Source: Heterostelium album PN500
Taxonomy: Eukaryota; Evosea; Eumycetozoa; Acytosteliales; Acytosteliaceae
Assembly: GCF_000004825.1 (NCBI RefSeq)
Contig: NW_008805082.1
Span: 1 to 28,166 of the forward strand
Direction of reading: 5' to 3'
Length of the DNA stretch: 28,166 bases
Below the pieces are notes generated by a model that saw only the letters and a list, made by a program, of their open reading frames with translations, ran no database searches and had not been told where the DNA came from. The position numbers and the translations under genes were made by a program. This document shows, piece after piece, positions 1 through 27,792 of this stretch (positions within the stretch are counted from its first letter, which is position 1; each line of letters opens with the position of its first letter).

Positions 1-216
1 TGATGATAATAATAATAATAATAATATTTCAACTCAATATTGTAGTGGTGATGATAAGATGATTCATGAAGATAAAGAAACATTAGGTACCGATCAATGT
101 ATGGAGGATGATGTCTCTAACGATACTTCAAATGAATCTATTATTTCAGCTAATGACCCACCAACACCAACCACTACTACCACTACCACTACTACCACTT
201 CCACTTCCACTACTAC

Positions 217-270
<54 letters not shown>

Positions 271-3200
271 CTATTACAAATTCTTTAATATTCGTAATAG
301 ATCAATGTCATTCACTCTATTTCCTAGTGTAGATTTGTAAGTATACTTTTTAATTATTCAAAGATCTAATATTCACTGACATCAATTTTTTTTTTTTTTT
401 TTTTTTAAAAATAGATTTAATCCATTCAGTTTGATGTATTCTGCCAAAGACATTAGAAGAATCATCAAAGCCGAGGATGGTATGACTGATATCCAAGTTA
501 TAAGATCTATTTTAAAAGTAGATTTCCTCAGGAGAATATTTGAAGCCAATCCGATCGATGTACATATCAGAACAAACGGTTATTCAGGTGGTGTTGTGTT
601 TAAAAGCAAATCAAAAAAAGTTCAAAAACAATACGAATTGAGTAAGTTGATAGATATTTATAATCTAGATTTGTATTTATTTTTTACTAATCATTTTTTT
701 ATTTTATTTTTTTTTTAAAGTTGGTTTAAAAGACATAAAAGATAAAGATGTACTTACTGAAGAACAATTTGAACAACTTGGTGTAGTAGTTTGTGATCCA
801 GCACCAAACCACAATGTTTGGTTAAATAACAAACATCCGTTTGCAAACGGTGCTGGTGATTATTCTTTCCGAAAGAATGTCATTGACGTGAAGTCTTCAA
901 CGCATCACTTTCAATCCGAGTCTGGTCTGAACAAACACAAAAAGAATAAGCTACTTGGTCACGATTTAATGAAATGGCAGTCTGACATACCTTCAGTCAA
1001 TGGTAATATCTTTTTTTCACAAGATTATCAAATTTTGTTTATCTTACTAACTATAAATACTATTTATTTTGATTTTTTTATCATAGGGTCCAGTACAAAC
1101 GATATTACAGATCTTGCAATATATGAAAAACGTTTGGAATTTATATTCAAATCGGTTTTTTTACCACCAGAACAAAGAAGTTCAGATATCAAACCATATG
1201 GTATTCTAAGGGCAGTCGGAGAAGAGAAAAAGAAAGAGCAACGAGTCTGCCTCTCAAACAACACCACCATTCCATATCACTCAAACCAGCATAAATCCGT
1301 CTTCCATCAGTATCGACAATGTCATGGTGATGCGTGGCAAAAGGTTGATTTGGATCGATCGCGATCAAAGAAGCACAGTGAATCATTAAATTCGAAAAAA
1401 TTGTTCAACTTTGCATTACAATCGATTCCTATCAAGCAGTTAACTCATGATCCAATGCAGATCGATTCCACCGATCCCAATGATCCAAAGCAGATCGACT
1501 CCACCGATTCCAATACTCCAAAGTGCGTGCCAAAGTTGGTATTCAAGGGTAACAATGTACCCATCCAATCCGACAGGGAATCATCTCAAGAGAAAAGTGG
1601 TGCCAATAAGATGAAGCTACGACGCGTTGGATCTCCCATCAAAGTGAGAAAAGTATATATTCACTTACTTCGAGAACACCTCGGCAAGCTTGACGATGGC
1701 TCACTGGAGCGATTCATGGATCGATTCAAATTTGTGCTAGATATAACCTATTTGCAAGATGATTTTACGAATCTACAGAAAGAAGCATTGCTAAAGTTCC
1801 TCAAGGATCACAAACTCGAGTTCCTCGAACCAATCGACGAGTCCAATGTACGATTAAATGATATACAGACTGCAATTCACTACTATGGAGTCGAGCTCAT
1901 CCAACAAGCAATGGATATATGGAAATTCTTTAAGTTTACCGAACCATTGCCAGGTAATCAAGGTGTGGAAAAAGAAGTACATTTCAAAGATGGCATAAAT
2001 AGAGTCGAACAAATTACAACAACTTTCAGGAACCAAGCGTTTCAAAAGTTTTGGTTCAGACGTATTCATTTCGAACGGTGCAAATGGCTAAAGGATCATG
2101 GAATTAAGATCATGCCAGATAGTGTCGGAGGTCACTGGATTAGACCAAATCAATCAAAAGTTGACGCCAATGAAGACAGTATTTACCAACTATTACCAGT
2201 CTTTAACGGCTTGACAATTTTGGTCATGGTATCTAACGGTACAGATGAAGGAAAAAAGGTAGAAAGAACATTAATCGGTCGAATTAAATTGAATGGTGGA
2301 AAGTACACTAGGGATGTAAATGGCACATTCAACTTTATGGTTACTGACAAGGAAGATTGGGACAGCACACCAAACAAAAAGGCGAGAGAGATCTGTAAGG
2401 TGAAGAATATTCCAGTAGTTTCCAATGCCACTTATATTACAGAGTGCCTGAGACAACATGTGTATCTACCTCTACTATCGTATGATCTGTCGTCAGCTGC
2501 CAACACTACCAGTAGTGCTGCGAAGGTTTCACCAAGCAAGAAGAGTGGTTCCAAGACAGCTATCAACACTACCAGTAGTGCTGCGAAGGTGACACCAAGC
2601 AAGAAGAGTGGTTCCAAGACAGCTACCAACACTACCAGCGGTTCAACTGTTGCACCAAGCAAGAAGAGTGGTTCCAAGACAGCTACCAACACTACCAGTA
2701 GTGATGCGAAGGTGACACCAACCAACAAGCGTATCGACTCACCCGCTCCCTCCATACCGGATCTTCAAACAAAAAAGAAGTCCAAGAAGACCGACAATAC
2801 CGACAAGAAGTCTATCGATAGCGATGAAGACAAAGACAATAATCCGAAATCCCGAAAGAAATCAAGTAAGTAATTAACTTTTTGTTATTTTTCAAATTAA
2901 AACAGTTCATTAATACCAATATAAACACTTTCATTCTTTATAGAGAATAAGAAAAGAGGTAGATGGAAGTGTTTATGTTGTGGAAAAACCAACAATTTCA
3001 AACGATTTACTGATGTACATTACAAAGTTCTCCACTGCAATCACTGTTTATTGGTACACATCCCTTTTAAAGATCGAAAAGCTGCCAAAGAATCAGTTGA
3101 TAAAACTAGAGTCGGTAAGTATCATAGTTGAAAAATAAAAAATAACAACTGTTTTTTGATTAATCTTTTTTTTTTTCACACATTTAGTTATTGGTGCTGG

Positions 3201-3918
3201 TTGTGGTAATTTAAATCATATTCAACGAATGAAAGGTGTGAAATATAGTCCTGCCACGGAAAGAATCACCGAATCTCTCCAAAGATACAGTTTCAGTGTT
3301 TCGAAAACAAACATGAAAATATCAATTTCCAACGAGTTCAATACATCACAAGTAGGTTTTAACTGTTTAATATCAATTGTTTTTTTATATTTTTACTAAT
3401 AAAATAATTATTTTTTTTTAAATTTTTAGGTGTTTGGTCCAAACATCGATAAACTAGAAAATGACTTTGTTTCAGCAATCAACAAACCAGTTTCAAACGA
3501 GTGGACGCAGGCAAAGAAAGATGAAGAGCTCCATTCGTTATATAACCTATCCAAGGTCAAACCCCCAGGAGAGAGTAAATCATATAAACCAAAAGATACC
3601 AAGAGGGTATATAACAAGTCATTCTCTGTTCGGTTGTACACTGGAAAGGATGACCAAGGCCAGCCTAAAGATATTTTTATCAATAGAGATATTCTTGCAT
3701 GTACAAACATGATGGCAATTGCTAAGGCCTATTTTTGTGGAAAGCAACGTCCACAACTTTTAGCACCTTTCACCAGTCAACCTATTATTAATACCCCGGG
3801 CAAGGAATGTCCACGACAAAATTTGATTTCTGCGTTTACGCAGTAAGTATTGAAATTTTTTTTTTTAAAAAACAAAAAGCACAATTTACTAATTTTTTTC
3901 TGTTTTTCAAGAGAATAA
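1..3918 (+). CDS. Fanzor-like (TnpB/RuvC-related) protein with embedded BRCT domain, 5' partial
   Basis: The frame is already open at base 2. Exons: 2-336, 415-641, 721-1002, 1087-2865, 2944-3114, 3188-3351, 3430-3842, 3912-3918; 1125 residues visible. The outer parts resemble Fanzor RNA-guided nucleases: an N-terminal SFTLFPSVDLFNPFS region, RTNGYSGG, a RuvC-I-like VVVCDPAPN (D213), NEFNTSQ (E981; Fanzors carry a Glu before a TS motif) and a RuvC-III-like FINRDILACTN (D1073) followed by GKQRP. Between these halves, in exon 4, lies a BRCT-like domain (about 652-745, with VSNGT, GGKYT and a VSNATYITECL helix), then S/T-P-x-K repeats, Lys-rich stretches and a CLCC...HCNHC zinc ribbon (about 883-910). 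The zinc Cys pairs expected after the TS motif are missing. Intron 3 is 84 nt and stop-free, so its retention would keep the frame. If the last 69-nt intron is retained, the protein ends at 3846 with one residue fewer. The BRCT and zinc ribbon are fairly clear; Fanzor kinship is inferred from motif order. It may be an element protein or a domesticated one. Confidence 0.55.
203..268 (+). repeat. (AAT)n microsatellite encoding poly-Asn, preceded by poly-Thr
   Basis: A long AAT run in the first visible exon gives an Asn tract, following a run of ACT/ACC Thr codons. Such homopolymers are common in dictyostelid proteins and are probably disordered linkers. The opening bases of the window encode a second, shorter Asn run. 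Confidence 0.9.
2502..2729 (+). repeat. 63-nt in-frame tandem repeat, S/T-P-x-K-K type
   Basis: Copies start at 2502, 2565, 2628 (60 nt, one codon shorter) and 2688 (partial). Each encodes NTTSSAAKV-[S/T]-PSKKSGSKTA or a close variant. The S/T-P-x-K core is both a CDK-type phosphorylation consensus and the SPKK minor-groove DNA-binding motif known from histone tails. The repeat lies between the BRCT domain and the zinc ribbon. Confidence 0.85.
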
Positions 3919-4294
3919 ATCAAATTGCACCACCGAATTCTCAATAAAAAAGTGATTGTACTGCAATAACACAACTTAATTAAAAAGTTGAGTGTGATTA
4001 AAAATTGATTGAACACATCTAAAAATGATTTATAACAATAGTTGATTGAACATCAATCATATATTGAAATTAAAGATGATAAATAAATCTTTTTTTTTGC
4101 AGAGTTGTCAGGATTATATTTGCTTTTCCTAAAAGAATAAATAATTTGCAAAAAAAACTATTCCACATTTTGACTCATTGAGGGGAGTCAAAAAAAAAAA
4201 AAAGTTTGACTAAAATTAAAATTAATGTTGTATTTTTTTTCATATCTAAATAAAGGTTATGTTAGACGTTGTACAGTTGAATAGTATATAAGCT
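3919..4294. other. Intergenic: gene-1 3' region and golgin promoter
   Basis: No gene is seen. The stretch is A+T-rich with poly-A and poly-T tracts. It holds a short inverted repeat CAACTT-N6-AAGTTG near 3970-3990, a partly repeated TTGATTGAACA motif near 4005-4055, and an 8-bp stem-loop at 4168-4193. The golgin start codon follows closely. Confidence 0.7.
4168..4193. other. Stem-loop, 8-bp perfect inverted repeat
   Basis: TTTTGACT (4168-4175) is complementary to AGTCAAAA (4186-4193), with a 10-nt loop CATTGAGGGG, and a poly-A run continues on the 3' side. A run of four G is unusual in this A+T-rich spacer. A role in mRNA 3'-end formation or as an element terminus is possible; neither is shown. 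Confidence 0.5.
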
Positions 4295-21412: not shown

Positions 21413-22005
21413 TAATAATAACTTGTAATAATAATAAATTGGTTTAATAAATTTATATATACCAAAAAGGTAATTAGTTTTAATCAAATAAAAATAAAAA
21501 ATAAAAAAGAACTAGAATTTTTGAAACTAATATTAATTTTATTAGAGTACCAATCAAATTTAGTGTGGAAATTAATTAAGATAACCCTTTTTTTGGCTTA
21601 GTTTGTTTTAGGTTTGAAACTTCCTCATTGATAAAGTTCATCAATCTCCTCAAAAAATATTACTACATATACTCAACTTTCAACCTACAAAAATATATTC
21701 TTTTTATAAACTGTCCTTAATCTTGTCATATATTATGAACTTTTTTAAAAAACAAAGTTTCTTAAATTATCTATCAATTTATATTTATTTATATGTTTAT
21801 TATAATAATTATCATTAATATTTGTATTTTTGTATAATTAAAAAAAAAAAAATTAAAATTAGAATTAAAAATTTATATATTATTATTTATATATATATAT
21901 ATTTATTTATTACTTTTTATATATTAAATTAATTAATATACCAATAATTAAAAAAAAAAAAAAAAAAAAAACTTTTTATAAAACTGGTTTTTTTTTTTTT
22001 AGATC
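20030..22005. promoter_or_regulatory. Long upstream region of the hybrid histidine kinase
   Basis: There is no ORF of note. Contents: poly-T tracts (20427-20446, 20500-20512); a G+C-rich inverted repeat GTCCCTGGGAC (20629-20639); C/A-rich ACACACAC clusters (20680-20715), a feature often seen upstream of developmentally regulated dictyostelid genes; and an (AAT)n tract (21380-21410). A strong acceptor-like poly-T-AG ends at 22002, three bases before the start codon, so an upstream non-coding exon is possible. A GTAATT donor at 21470 is one candidate partner. Confidence 0.5.
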
Positions 22006-23463
22006 ATGTTTTATTTAAAGATATTAAATCAACTGACAACACCAGTTTGGATTTTCGATATCGATAATAAGTCATTGGTTTGGGGAAATACAAAGTCAGC
22101 AGAACTCTGGAATGCCGAATCAGTGGCGGCACTCATTACTCGTGACTTTAAGAGTGATATGTCGCTAGCGACAGAGTTGCGACTTGGTACATACAAAGCC
22201 GATTTTGAAGAAGGCAAGCGAAGGACCGAACAGTGGACGTTCTATCCGGGAGGTCTGCATCCCATGCCAGTGGTCATCACCTGCTCTGGAATCAAGGTCA
22301 CCCGTCTGGAAGCGGAGCAATATTTCACAGAGTTGGCACTATCCCAATGGCCAATTGAAATAAACGAGAGAATGTTGATGCTTGTCGAAGCGCAATACAT
22401 CAAGGAGGCAGAAGTCGATTCCAATAAAGAGCTGCTTCGTTCAGTTGAAGCGATCAGACATACTCCTGTTATGATCTCACTCTTTGAGTTGGAGGGACAG
22501 CTTCTCATTCACAATCCATCTGCTATCGAGGCATTTGGAAATTGTTGTACATTATCCAGTATTTTTTCTGATCCCAACGATGCGGAATCCATTCTGAAAC
22601 ATCTCAATAACAATAATATATATCAAGGAGAGTTTAAAATGAAAACTAAACTCGGTGATTTCTGGCACCACGTAGACGCGAGAACCACTCGTGATCCGGT
22701 CACGGCAAAGCGAGTGGTGGTCATCAACCAGAACAACATTCACGACATCAAGCTATATAATCTCACCGTCAAGGAGAATGAAAGACGTCTTCAAGAGGCA
22801 CAGGAAATTGGTAACATGGGTAGCTGGGAATTGGATCTCAGGAACAATGTCACCAAGGCGTCAAAGCAGTTCTATCGAATCATGGGACTCGGCCAGTGTT
22901 CAGAGTGGGACTATCAACATACATTCACCGAGATGATGAGCAAAGGATTTCTCGACGATTGGATGTCAGTGCTGAAGAAGGCAGTCGAGTCGAAACAATC
23001 GTTTTTCGAATACTCTCACTACGTGAAGAACATTTCGAAACACGTTCATGTCCGATGCGAAGTGGAGTTCGATCCGACCACTGGATCTCCAATCCGAGTT
23101 TTTGGTACCACCCAAGACATCTCAGAGATTCAAGCGGCCAAGGAGAAGCTCGAACAAGAAAGAAAGTTTGTCAATGCACTGATAGGTTGCTTGAAGGCTG
23201 GCATTGTTGCATGTAATTCGGAAGGTGTCATCACTCACTTTAACAAGTCTGCACAACGCTTACACGGAGTGGAGCTAAAGGAAGGTGTTGACAAAGATCA
23301 TCTCTTAGATTCCATTCATCCATGCTATCGAGTTCCATCAAGCAAAGAAATGCTACCAAAAGAAGATATTCCAATTCTTAGAGTTTTATCTGGAGAATCT
23401 ATTCAAGATAGAGAATTAATATTAGTTCCTCAAAATAATAATAATAATAACACCAACAACAAC

Positions 23464-23497
<34 letters not shown>

Positions 23498-25251
23498 TCA
23501 GTGAAGATAGTAGTGAAAATAGTAGTGTTTCGAGTGACTCTGATAAAAACTCGAAATTTAAAAACAAAAATAATAATCAACAGAATTCCACAGAATATAC
23601 AGTATTAGTTAGTGGTCAAGAAATAGTATCGAGTGACGGTACTATTATAGGTGCAGTGGTTGTATTACATGATATATCAGATATCAAAGCAAACGAAGAA
23701 GAACTACGTACTGCAATCAAAGGATCACAAGAAGCTAATCAAATTAAAAATGAATTTCTTGCTAATATAAGTCATGAACTTCTCAGTCCGATGAACTCTA
23801 TCGTTGGCATGAGTGGATTAGCTCTCGATGTTGCACCACCTAACATTAAAGAAATGTTAACCGATGTAGTCGAATCATCAAAAATCCTATTACATTTATT
23901 ATATCAAATTTTAGGTATGTAGTACTACTCGATTACTGATCGCTACTAATCTACTTTTACTAATCGATATGTGTGTGTGTATGTGTGTTATTTAGATTTT
24001 ACTTCGCTAGAAGGTCATACAATTCTAAGAAGATATCCATTTAAACTTAGAGAGACCATCAAATCGGTGCTAAAGATTTTCTATCCTAGAATCTTAGAGC
24101 AGCACATCATACTGAAATGTCAAATCGATCCTTCCATTCCAAATCAGCTATTTGGTGATCAAAATCGATTGAAGCAAATCCTAGCGAATATTTTAGATAA
24201 TGCAATCAAGTTTTCCAATCAAAAAAATGCAAGTAAGCAGATTCTCATCAAAGTCATTCAGGTTGTAGATGACACCAACAACAACAACGATTCATTGCTA
24301 TCACTGCGATTCTCGATTCAAGACAACGGTATTGGTGTTCCAGTGGAAAAGAGCAAGTTCATATTCGATGGTTTCTATCAGGTGGACGGCTCTTACTCTC
24401 GCACACGTGGTGGCGTTGGCATCGGACTGAGTATCTGTCACAAACTAGTAAAGTTCTTCAACGGTAGCATTTGGTTCGACAGTCAACACGACAAAGGCTC
24501 AACCTTTTATTTTACAATCAAGATCAATCGATGCGATCAACACTCACCTCTATCGACACCGCCACTCAGCTCGCAACCACACTTTTTTACACCACCGATC
24601 TCGCCTCGATCGGTATCACCCAACCACAACTGTTTCTTCAGTTCGAAAAACGACATATACATTTCACCGCAGCTCTGCAAGGATTTCAATCTGTCGACAA
24701 GCAACGATTCAAACGACAGTCAGTCTAGTTCGAATCTATCGACGCCAAGTCCAATATATCCGAGTTTTGGTTCTTCAAATTGGTCTCCTTCTCTCACAGA
24801 ACTGCGGCTATCCGACAGCAGTAGTGATAGTGGTTCATCGACATACGAACACAAAGAAGATAGAAGTCCGCGAAAAGTATTGGTTGCCGAAGACAATACG
24901 ATGAACCAGCGTCTCATTCAAAAGCTGCTATCGAAGCGTGGCTTCAAGGTCTCGATTGCCAACGATGGAAAGGAAGCACTCGATCTCTATGAAAGTGAAA
25001 TCGAGAAACAGAATCCATTCGATTGTATATTGATGGACATCCAGATGCCGGTACTCAATGGTTTGGAAACCACCTCTGCAATTAGAGAACGCGAGAAGCA
25101 AGAAGGTGGTCACACTCCAATAATAGCAGTAACAGCGCATGCAATGAAAGGAGATAAGGAAAAGTTTATAGAGGCCGGTGTTGATGACTATGTAACAAAG
25201 CCTATCAATCCAAATACCTTGTATCAAGTGATCAATTCACAATTAAAATAA
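22006..25251 (+). CDS. Multi-PAS hybrid sensor histidine kinase with receiver domain
   Basis: Exons 22006-23914 and 23996-25251 encode 1054 residues. Domains in order: three to four PAS-like folds (about 5-110, 150-250, 265-375 with GNMGSWELD, and 395-565 with GIVACNSEGVITHFN), a dimerisation/phosphoacceptor region with ISHELLSPMNSI (His590), an ATPase domain with ILDNAIKF (Asn705), DNGIGV and GGVGIGLSI, and a receiver domain (about 926-1053) with AEDN, LMDIQMP (Asp984), VTAHA and TKPI. The phosphate would pass from His590 to Asp984 and on to an Hpt protein such as RdeA, as in D. discoideum phosphorelays. No membrane segment or signal peptide is seen, so a soluble sensor is inferred. The H-box is unusual: HELLSP where HELRTP is normal. 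A poly-Asn/Ser insert interrupts the last PAS. A Ser/Pro-rich linker precedes the receiver. Which Dhk kinase is orthologous is not clear. Confidence 0.9.
23434..23595 (+). repeat. (AAT/AAC)n poly-Asn insert inside the last PAS domain
   Basis: Asn-rich codons, then Ser/Asp/Lys/Asn-rich sequence, separate the halves of a PAS fold: RELILVPQ before and TEYTVLVSGQEI after. It is A+T-rich compared with the flanking exon and is probably a disordered loop. Confidence 0.85.
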
Positions 25252-25509: not shown

Positions 25510-27792
25510 TTAGAACCAAACATCTTGTAAATATCTACCGGATTTCTGCATATCTTCAATGAGTTGTTGAGCTGCGTTGTCGTCTTTTGATCCGTATTCT
25601 TTGATGATTTGAATGAGTGTTTGATTTACGCTCTTTGCCATGCTTCGAGCGTCACCACATACATAGAAGTAACCACCATTGGAAATGAGTGACCAGATCT
25701 TTTCTTTGTCCGATGCCATCTTGTGTTGAACGTAGGTCTTCTCGGCGGTCTCTCTCGAGAATGCAACAGTGAGAGTCTTCAACGATGAAGATTGTTGATA
25801 GACTACCATTTCCTCCTTGTAGAGATAGTCAATGTTACTACCACGACAACCGAAATAGAGAATATTGTCGAATTGTTCGGAGATCTGTTTGGTTGAGAGA
25901 CGGTGTTGAATCTCTTGGAGGAAACCACGGAATGGTGCAAAACCAGTACCTGGACCGACCATGATCATTGGTGGTGCTGGCTTGTCGCTGGCAACCGCCG
26001 AAGTGTAGTGTGATGGTAATCTAAAGTGAGACTCTCTTACAAACATTGGCACCTTATCACCGACCTTGAGGTTGGCAAGCCAAGTCGAGCAAACACCATT
26101 GTGGAAACGTCCAGTTGGTGTGTTAAAGTTGACGACCACCGATGTGATGGTGACACGACCTGGTGTGGCGTTCAAACTGGAGGAGATCGAGTAGTAACGA
26201 GCGGGAAGACGTGGCATGAACTCGAGGAAGTGTGAGATGGGTGGATTGATACCTGGGAAGTTCTGAAGCAACTCACCGATCGTACGGAAATCGTGCTTGA
26301 TAAACTCATTGTATTCGTCGGCGGCTTCCTCCGATGCCAAACGAATCAAACGCTTCTTCTCTTCCTCGACTTGGGTGTACTCGGCGAGAGTACGAAGAAT
26401 TGACTTACGTGGTGGATTGGTGATATCGAGTACCTCGGACAATGCCTTACGCACTGTCATTGGACCGACGGAAGCTTCAATCACTGAACCGGCCTTGTCG
26501 TGTGGAACCATGGCGAACTTGGTGTCTCCGTCAACGCCCAAACGTAGAAGCAACTGCTCGACCAAGGCGCTCTCATTAACTGGATAAATACCAAGATGAT
26601 CACCAACCAAATAACTCAAATTCTCTCCAATATCAAACTCTATATGCTTGCAAGATCTATCTGATTCACTTGAATGTAATTCTTTATTCTCAACAACAGT
26701 AGCAAGATATGGATTTTTAATATCATAAATACTATGTATCGTAGAGTATCAACAACAACAAATGAAATGAGTCAATTATAAAACAATAATAATCGTAGTA
26801 ATCTATCTAAAGATAATACATACACTGAGCCATTATTTGAAAGTTTAGGTTTAATCTTTGGTGGATTAACTCTAATGTAAGAATTGTTTACATCGTAATT
26901 CTCTTCTGTAAGTGTAATCATTCTGAATCTTGGTGTACTATATATTATATATTTGATTGATATAGGATGGTAAGCAATCGATCGATTGATTTTTGATTAC
27001 TTAAGTAATATAGTAATACATACAATTTATCATCTTCAGATGACTTTAGTTCGTAACCGAGGTATTCGCAAACAGTTACCCACATGTTCTTCTTCCAGTG
27101 TAGGAAATCTTCTTCGAGGGTGGCATCATCATCACCTTCACCTCTTTCAAAGACTCGCTTACCACCGAGTTCCTCGAGACGTCTGTCGAATACACGTGCG
27201 ACTGCATTGTAGTGTTCGTATGTTTTGTTTCCGAGACCAAAAACGGTGAATGGTACCGCTGGATTGGCGAGCAAAGTCGATGGACGATCCTCGCTCGTTA
27301 GCCACAAGTAGAACTCCTTGGCATTGTCAGTGGGGTCACCCTCACCGTGGGTCGCCACCAAAAACATTGCAAAGTACTCACTGGACAAATCATTTGGATC
27401 GTAAGTCTCCAGATCGACAACCTCACATGGAATTCCAATCTTTTTTGCCTCCTTCTCAATGACACGTGAGAAATCCTCTGCTGTTCTAGTTTGTGTTCCA
27501 AAGAATATCTTTAAAACTTTCTAAAAATAGGTAAAGATGTAACCGAGATATATATGTAAAAGTAAAGTAAGTACTTGATTGAATCGACCGATTTCAATAT
27601 ATAGTTATTATATACCTCTGAAGATGATTTTTGAACTTTTGGTGGCTTTGGGGCAGCTGGTGTCTTTATCTTTCTGTTGATAGGAGGAGGAGGTGGAGGT
27701 CTATTCATATATAAATAGGTTCCAACAATGAGAACTACAACTATAATTGTTGGTGCATATTCTATTAAAAGTGATTCAATTAGATCCAACAT
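25510..27792 (-). CDS. NADPH-cytochrome P450 reductase
   Basis: Four exons on the minus strand (27792-27616, 27520-27024, 26937-26824, 26731-25510) encode 669 residues. The enzyme moves electrons from NADPH through FAD and FMN to microsomal P450s and other haem proteins. A single N-terminal membrane anchor (about 13-29) is followed by a Pro-rich stalk (PPPPPP). The FMN domain begins IFFGTQTRTAEDF and holds ATHGEGDPTDNAKEF and VFGLGNKTYEHYNAVA. The FAD/connecting region has RSCKHIEFD, GDHLGIYPVN and RYYSISSS. The NADPH domain has MVGPGTGFAPFRGF, YFGCRG and YVCGDAR. The C-terminus is DVWF, with the conserved Trp second to last that shields FAD in the family. The length fits the family. The ATG at 27792 is the only start that includes the anchor. 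D. discoideum has two such enzymes (redA, redB); the anchor would need comparison to choose, so no symbol is given. Confidence 0.93.

Follow-up and report, generated by a model that had tools for sequence, protein, structure and literature searches.

A probable Fanzor1-type nuclease gene with a BRCT-like insertion at the right end of a transposable element of Heterostelium album

Seven Fanzor1 families have been listed in Polysphondylium pallidum (Bao and Jurka 2013, PMC3627910). According to the available text of that paper, the chimeric elements PPa-1, PPa-4 and PPa-5 share 5' parts of 7 kb, 98% identical, that encode Sola2 transposases, their 3' parts are entirely different, and they possess imperfect 21-bp terminal inverted repeats and 4-bp target duplications (ATAT, AAAT and ATTT). 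Most Fanzor1s are described as 600-700 residues long (PMC11423790, as far as available) and Fanzors as reaching about 800 (PMC10711439, likewise in part), the latter source also naming a TDG motif of the Fanzor1 wedge domain. In PpFz1, a domain of about 100 residues termed FRI is inserted in RuvC and binds cyclophilin (PMC11423790). Here, we describe a gene at the start of contig NW_008805082.1 of Heterostelium album PN500. The window, i.e. the whole stretch analysed, is this complete 28,166-base contig, one of 39 in the 32.9 Mb genome; other contigs are cited as C2, C14, C25 and so on.

The best explanation, which we regard as fairly probable, is that the window begins inside a Fanzor1-type nuclease gene and holds its larger, C-terminal part, the gene being situated at the right end of a Sola2-Fanzor element of ~14.5 kb and its product working by the mechanism proposed below. 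At the level of sequence, this reading is based on a predicted D-E-D triad, large insertions that separate RuvC-I from RuvC-II and are partly shared with a second family, a BRCT-like domain detected in the first family only, a putative C4 ribbon lying upstream, and copies with shared ends.

Gene model and predicted nuclease motifs

Removal of six GT-AG introns joins seven exons (Table 1) into a single frame of 1124 residues, open at the 5' contig edge. The contig start falls inside the gene, whose 5' end is therefore cut off, and the full protein is longer than the window shows. Together with its copies on C14 and C25, the gene constitutes family A; families B, C and D are relatives elsewhere in the same genome. 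Exons 1-7 are open end to end in the window and in C25, while the C14 copy is frameshifted in exon 3; the exon 4 frame by itself is open in all three. Every one of the six introns is matched by a family B intron at the same place and in the same phase (copies on C17 and C8), although the splice sites of B were picked using A as a guide, and the agreement is thus not fully independent support. In families C and D, too, an intron directly follows the TS[KR] of RuvC-II. With six places and phases matched in B and all seven exons open in C25, a seven-exon gene is beyond chance. The open frame of C25 extends about 336 residues farther upstream, to about 1,400 residues, and further exons probably precede it. 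By eye, a Cys/His segment appears common to the upstream frames of A on C14 and C25 (CNSKHHEALG...CSTC) and of B on C17 (CKNDNHKNVG...CASC); it is perhaps an additional zinc-binding part, N-terminal to the piece in the window.

The predicted RuvC triad occurs in Fanzor order and exactly where the preliminary description had placed it: Asp213 in VVVCDPAPN, Glu981 in NEFNTSQ, and Asp1073 in FINRDILACTN, with GKQRP after it. The first two are 768 residues apart (the preliminary estimate was about 770) and the last two 92. When compared by sequence only, Asp213 aligns with B and D, and Glu981 and Asp1073 align with B, C, D and SpuFz1. The glutamate that Fanzor1s carry beside [TS][TS] (E-x-x-TS) is present in NEFNTSQ, and its E, T and S, as well as RD, A, N and RP, are invariant in the alignment of families A-D. 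The place of the Fanzor1 TDG motif is occupied by TNG in A and by SNG in B and D. Exons 5-7 of family B are 39% identical to those of A and contain DPG, DEYNTS and NRD.

The Fanzor identity of A depends on these relatives as a bridge. For A itself, neither Pfam nor single-sequence searches of the PDB gave a Fanzor. Exons 5-7 of A receive 76 bits from a profile built on B alone, compared with 9.4 for the best of 2000 shuffles, and 41.3 bits from one of B, C and D (best shuffle, 10.7). Among 177,635 PDB sequences, the four-family profile has three matches at E ≤ 10, namely SpuFz1 (8gkh, E 0.016) and two of LaTranC (E 0.032), which we take to be a TnpB-related nuclease. At the profile level, the Fanzor assignment, read by eye in the preliminary description, has SpuFz1 as its best PDB match, and Pfam has no Fanzor or OrfB match for A. 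Weak matches to PF07282, below its cut-off, are located at five places in the genome. Those on C2, C4 and C14 represent family C. Over 1.8 kb, identity to the C14 copy is 97.2% for C2 and 99.6% for C4, and each of the three is separated by about 8.5 kb from a transposase copy, the two being oriented relative to each other as in A. The match at C3:1673423 belongs to a fragment of family C and that at C3:2565116 to family D. On viral contigs, 44 stretches fit a pattern of the four-family profile and none was confirmed. Taken by these alignments and profiles, A likely belongs to the Fanzors, at a distance.

We file A as a putative Fanzor variant because its spacing and zinc-finger place differ from those published and DPG is replaced by DPA. 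The Asp213-Glu981 interval of 768 residues, and the corresponding 873 residues in B, lie outside the Fanzor1 spacing D-X(125,275)-[TS][TS]; with introns included, no more than 187 (family C) and 215 (family D) residues separate RuvC-I Asp from RuvC-II Glu, values within the ordinary range. Fanzor1s have a C4 zinc finger between RuvC-II and RuvC-III, and the 90 residues from Glu981 to the NRD motif contain no cysteine. The C4 ribbon of A (C884, C887, C906 and C909) is instead situated upstream of RuvC-II, and this position is kept in B. At RuvC-I, B and D have DPG and C has DCG.

Table 1. Positions of the gene, its inserted segments and the element terminus within the window
Feature	Position	Strand	Remarks
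Exon 1, 5' part missing at contig start; Asn/Thr-rich tract	2-336	+	GT donor at 337; frame goes on upstream in C14 and C25 copies
Exon 2; RTNG (T165-G167) at place of Fanzor1 TDG motif	415-641	+	RSNGD at aligned place in families B and D
Exon 3; RuvC-I, predicted catalytic Asp213 at 795-797, DPA not DPG	721-1002	+	DPG at same place in family B
Exon 4, insertion-bearing: segment weakly shared with family B (about 22% identity), then BRCT-like domain, repeats, Lys-rich linker	1087-2865	+	
BRCT-like domain, residues about 653-747	about 2199-2483	+	Pfam BRCT_2 and BRCT below gathering scores; own-genome BRCT profile
[SAT]PSKKSGSKT repeats and Lys-rich linker	2496-2865	+	Length variable: C25 123 nucleotides shorter
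Exon 5; C4 ribbon CLCC-x18-CNHC at 2970-3047, ahead of RuvC-II	2944-3114	+	CIKC/CSHC in family B
Exon 6; RuvC-II, predicted catalytic Glu981 at 3334-3336 (NEFNTSQ)	3188-3351	+	Aligned with B, C, D and SpuFz1
Exon 7 with stop (coding 3430-3845, stop 3846-3848); RuvC-III, predicted catalytic Asp1073 at 3688-3690 (NRDILACTN)	3430-3848	+	Aligned with B, C, D and SpuFz1
Right terminus of element, ends CAAGAGAATAAATC; common to families A and B	3867-3921	+	At least 26 matches in genome
AAAT, candidate right copy of 4-base target-site duplication	3922-3925	+	AAAT flanks at left and right for C14 and C25 copies

The BRCT-like insertion

BRCT domains act in DNA repair. The Asp213-Glu981 interval holds a BRCT-like domain, repeats, a Lys-rich stretch and the C4 ribbon. 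All the parts that the preliminary description had listed there are present, the BRCT with moderate support, and the ribbon is found in exon 5, before Glu981. Two Pfam models recognize the isolated segment: BRCT_2 (E 3.5e-4, 21.3 bits against a cut-off of 27.3, profile positions 2-85 of 86) and BRCT (E 7.9e-4, 20.1 bits against a cut-off of 21.3, positions 4-70 of 78); in the context of the long protein, the respective E-values are 0.01 and 0.013. Scored with a profile built from 14 BRCT domains found in this genome, the segment obtains 27.7 bits, and the best of 2000 shuffles 5.7. This profile represents 14 of 24 matches, 16 of which had loci; two with internal stops were excluded, and for some of the 14 the sequence was cut back to a stop adjacent to the domain. 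The hhalign probability for the segment is 92%. Three [SAT]PSKKSGSKT units, at residues 763, 784 and 804, and a fourth, diverged one follow the domain and lead into the Lys-rich stretch.

In a protein search of the same genome, the BRCT segment was detected in the three A copies only. The corresponding part of family B scores -4.2 bits, and 393 of 3000 shuffles align equally well; a remnant BRCT in B is unsupported. Recent capture of a host BRCT gene was also considered, and the nearest of the 14 own-genome domains (on C28 and C2; E 0.001 and 0.002 in the 14-sequence search) are too distant for a source to be named. Altogether, the profile comparisons point with moderate strength to a BRCT-like domain inside the family A Fanzor. 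The RuvC nuclease with an internal BRCT that had been proposed is accordingly upheld in its nuclease part by the triad and the A-D alignment, and in its BRCT part at that moderate level, below the Pfam cut-offs. The literature searched yielded nothing joining Fanzor or TnpB with BRCT, and, among papers on BRCT with transposases and transposable elements, none on Fanzors by title. The BRCT insertion is thus a feature not found in the literature searched; the upstream ribbon and the open frame of ~1,400 residues are also unusual.

The carrier element, proposed mechanism and alternatives

The family A gene forms the right end of an element of ~14.5 kb, which measures 14,465 bases in C14 (C14:385926-400390). 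The window, C14 and C25 share the gene DNA at about 98% up to 3921-3925, beyond which the flanks differ; leftward of the gene, C14 and C25 remain alike, and the left flank of the window element lies outside the window. The left half of the element bears an opposite-strand gene with DDE-like motifs, recognized by eye. Eight places match this transposase-like gene completely or for the most part, one of them interrupted by a stop, and Pfam gave no transposase match for it. One copy of it, C14:1788-2495, lies in an open frame of 838 residues, compared with 244 in most other near-full copies, and may be free of introns or have open ones. Matches to the element ends number at least 41 for the left and at least 26 for the right. 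Near 18 of the 26 right-end matches no Fanzor match was found, the protein searches being lower bounds; these places resemble the ghost loci described for Spu-1 in the accessible part of PMC10432273. The C25 element also contains an insert of ~602 bases (C25:972454-973055) that is perhaps a small nested element; a stretch next to the Fanzor on C8 matches it at 96.8% identity.

The C17 element (C17:520567-536022) has a left half like that of the A element and family B in its right half. Between C14 and C17, identity of the left halves is 96.1% in one 3.3 kb block and 96.8% in another, 92-94% in smaller blocks and about 80% at the inner edge, and the last ~60-80 bases of the A and B elements are alike again. 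This pair would represent a swap of Fanzor modules on one backbone. Since their split, the A copies show no clear sign of purifying selection, with 8 synonymous and 16 non-synonymous codon changes between the window and C25 and 9 and 10 between the window and C14; exons 2, 5 and 6 are without substitutions among the three. Frameshifted copies occur in both families (C14 of A, in exon 3; C17 and C8a of B, in the last and the large exon, respectively). Judged from its copies, the element belongs to a transposon family that was mobile recently and has exchanged its Fanzor modules.

In the proposed mechanism, modelled on known Fanzors, RNA made from or near the right end of the element would guide the nuclease, which would cut DNA at sites that match the guide and lie next to a short target motif; this motif is perhaps AAAT, the AT-rich 4-base target. 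With less assurance, the BRCT and the Lys-rich linker may dock the nuclease on host chromatin or on phosphorylated repair proteins, and breaks at empty sites might then be repaired from the element-bearing chromosome, such that the element is kept or copied; any role of the BRCT in recruiting or sensing repair factors belongs to this weaker part. A bolder version, which we consider doubtful, is an RNA-guided nuclease with a repair-recruiting module of its own, in which the BRCT would bind phosphorylated break-repair proteins and the enzyme would both cut the empty site and steer its repair towards copying of the transposon, A and B being a distinct branch of giant Fanzors (relocated C4 ribbon, ~1,400 residues or more).

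Several results weigh against the best explanation given at the outset. RuvC-I reads DPA where DPG is expected. A profile of C and D only scores A at 13.9 bits, compared with 10.8 for the best of 2000 shuffles. The A+B profile found no Fanzor in the PDB at E ≤ 10 (its one match is an unrelated reductase), nor did A, B or D, each searched there as a single sequence. Pfam has no Fanzor or OrfB match for A and for B just PF07282 at E 2.8. The BRCT scores are below both gathering cut-offs, and a single-sequence fold of the segment (predicted local distance difference test score, 39.6) gave no usable model. Guide-RNA structure at the right end did not exceed shuffles (z -1.13, 0.26 and -0.27). The 4-base flanks are AAAT/AAAT in two of four elements (C14 and C25) and mismatched in C17 (CTTT/AAAT) and C8 (ATTT/AAAT, if its two ends belong together). 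We also note that the C17 mismatch is of the sort that recombination between elements could leave.

Among the alternatives, a decaying passenger deserves the most attention, in which the BRCT and linkers are tolerated insertions and the enzyme no longer cuts. It would account for DPA, the zinc finger absent from its canonical place, linkers whose length differs between copies, the frameshifts on C14, C17 and C8a, and the lack of clear purifying selection. Nevertheless, the D, E, D triad is intact, the window and C25 copies keep all seven exons open, the motifs are retained in A and B despite an identity of 39%, and exons 2, 5 and 6 are unsubstituted in three A copies; we see decay as a real but minor possibility. 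It is unlikely that the BRCT call is mistaken and the segment is another alpha/beta domain. This would fit the scores below the Pfam cut-offs, the unusable fold model and a single-sequence PDB search of the segment that returned no BRCT and TrmE alone (E 0.48), whereas two Pfam models concur along most of their extent, the score with the own-genome profile greatly exceeds those of the shuffles and hhalign agrees.

Two further readings are very improbable. Exon 4 is large and has little similarity to typical Fanzors, and a gene for a BRCT-Lys protein lying between Fanzor exons could have been read as one with them; against this, six intron counterparts occupy the same places and phases in B, where BRCT is undetected, and the exon 4 frame is open in all three A copies. 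Least probable of all is the domesticated element raised in the preliminary description, i.e. a Fanzor-BRCT fusion retained by the host for cellular repair. The established function of BRCT domains in repair and the unusual architecture speak for it, but the gene is multi-copy and element-borne; its copies are recent and nearly identical, end alike on the right, lie in different flanks and include a broken one. These shared element ends and decaying copies, with no clear purifying selection, lead us to abandon domestication in favour of the Fanzor1-type gene of a mobile element.

Elsewhere in the window, two long frames at 22003-25251 contain PAS-like, histidine-kinase and receiver motifs and resemble, by eye, a hybrid histidine kinase. 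Two minus-strand frames at 25510-27520 resemble cytochrome P450 reductase (flavodoxin and FAD/NADPH parts), also by eye. There are no Rfam matches and no tRNA genes within the window.

Comparison with described Fanzors

The literature searched for Fanzors in pallidum or Dictyostelium gave PMC3627910 only. The element is of a known type, since it fits the available description of PPa-1, PPa-4 and PPa-5 in detail, except that no clear inverted repeat was seen at the C14 element ends, which were not scored against chance. From this fit, the host is very probably the species treated there as P. pallidum. Common to both are a near-identical, transposase-bearing 5' part of ~7 kb and differing 3' Fanzor genes, and the AT-rich 4-base duplications described, AAAT among them, have a candidate counterpart in the AAAT flanks of C14 and C25; the shared 5' and different 3' parts are seen here as DNA identity between A and B, and for C as place and orientation beside the transposase. 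The name Sola2 is taken for this element from PMC3627910 alone. The BRCT, the displaced zinc ribbon and the protein size are not mentioned in the available part of that description.

The four-family profile agrees with SpuFz1 of Spizellomyces punctatus (8gkh) in the DEY-TS of RuvC-II and in the NRD, N and RP of RuvC-III. A is much longer. SpuFz1 presumably has no BRCT and carries its zinc finger at the canonical place.

PpFz1 likewise has an extra domain inserted in RuvC, for whose FRI a host-protein contact is known (PMC11423790, in the part available). In A, a BRCT-like domain, a long Lys-rich linker and further insertions are present rather than FRI. The BRCT-like domain would add a further kind of insert to the RuvC lobe of Fanzors, for which the text available describes the cyclophilin-binding FRI only. 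In what way a Fanzor benefits its transposon has yet to be settled, and a Fanzor with a built-in domain of the type that recognizes phosphorylation at DNA damage would make one answer directly testable. The family B Fanzor has the element backbone, the right end, six intron places and the upstream C4 ribbon in common with A; it differs in having no detectable BRCT and a low-complexity linker in its place. The A and B pair, on one backbone with and without BRCT, thus offers a natural comparison for the role of the BRCT.

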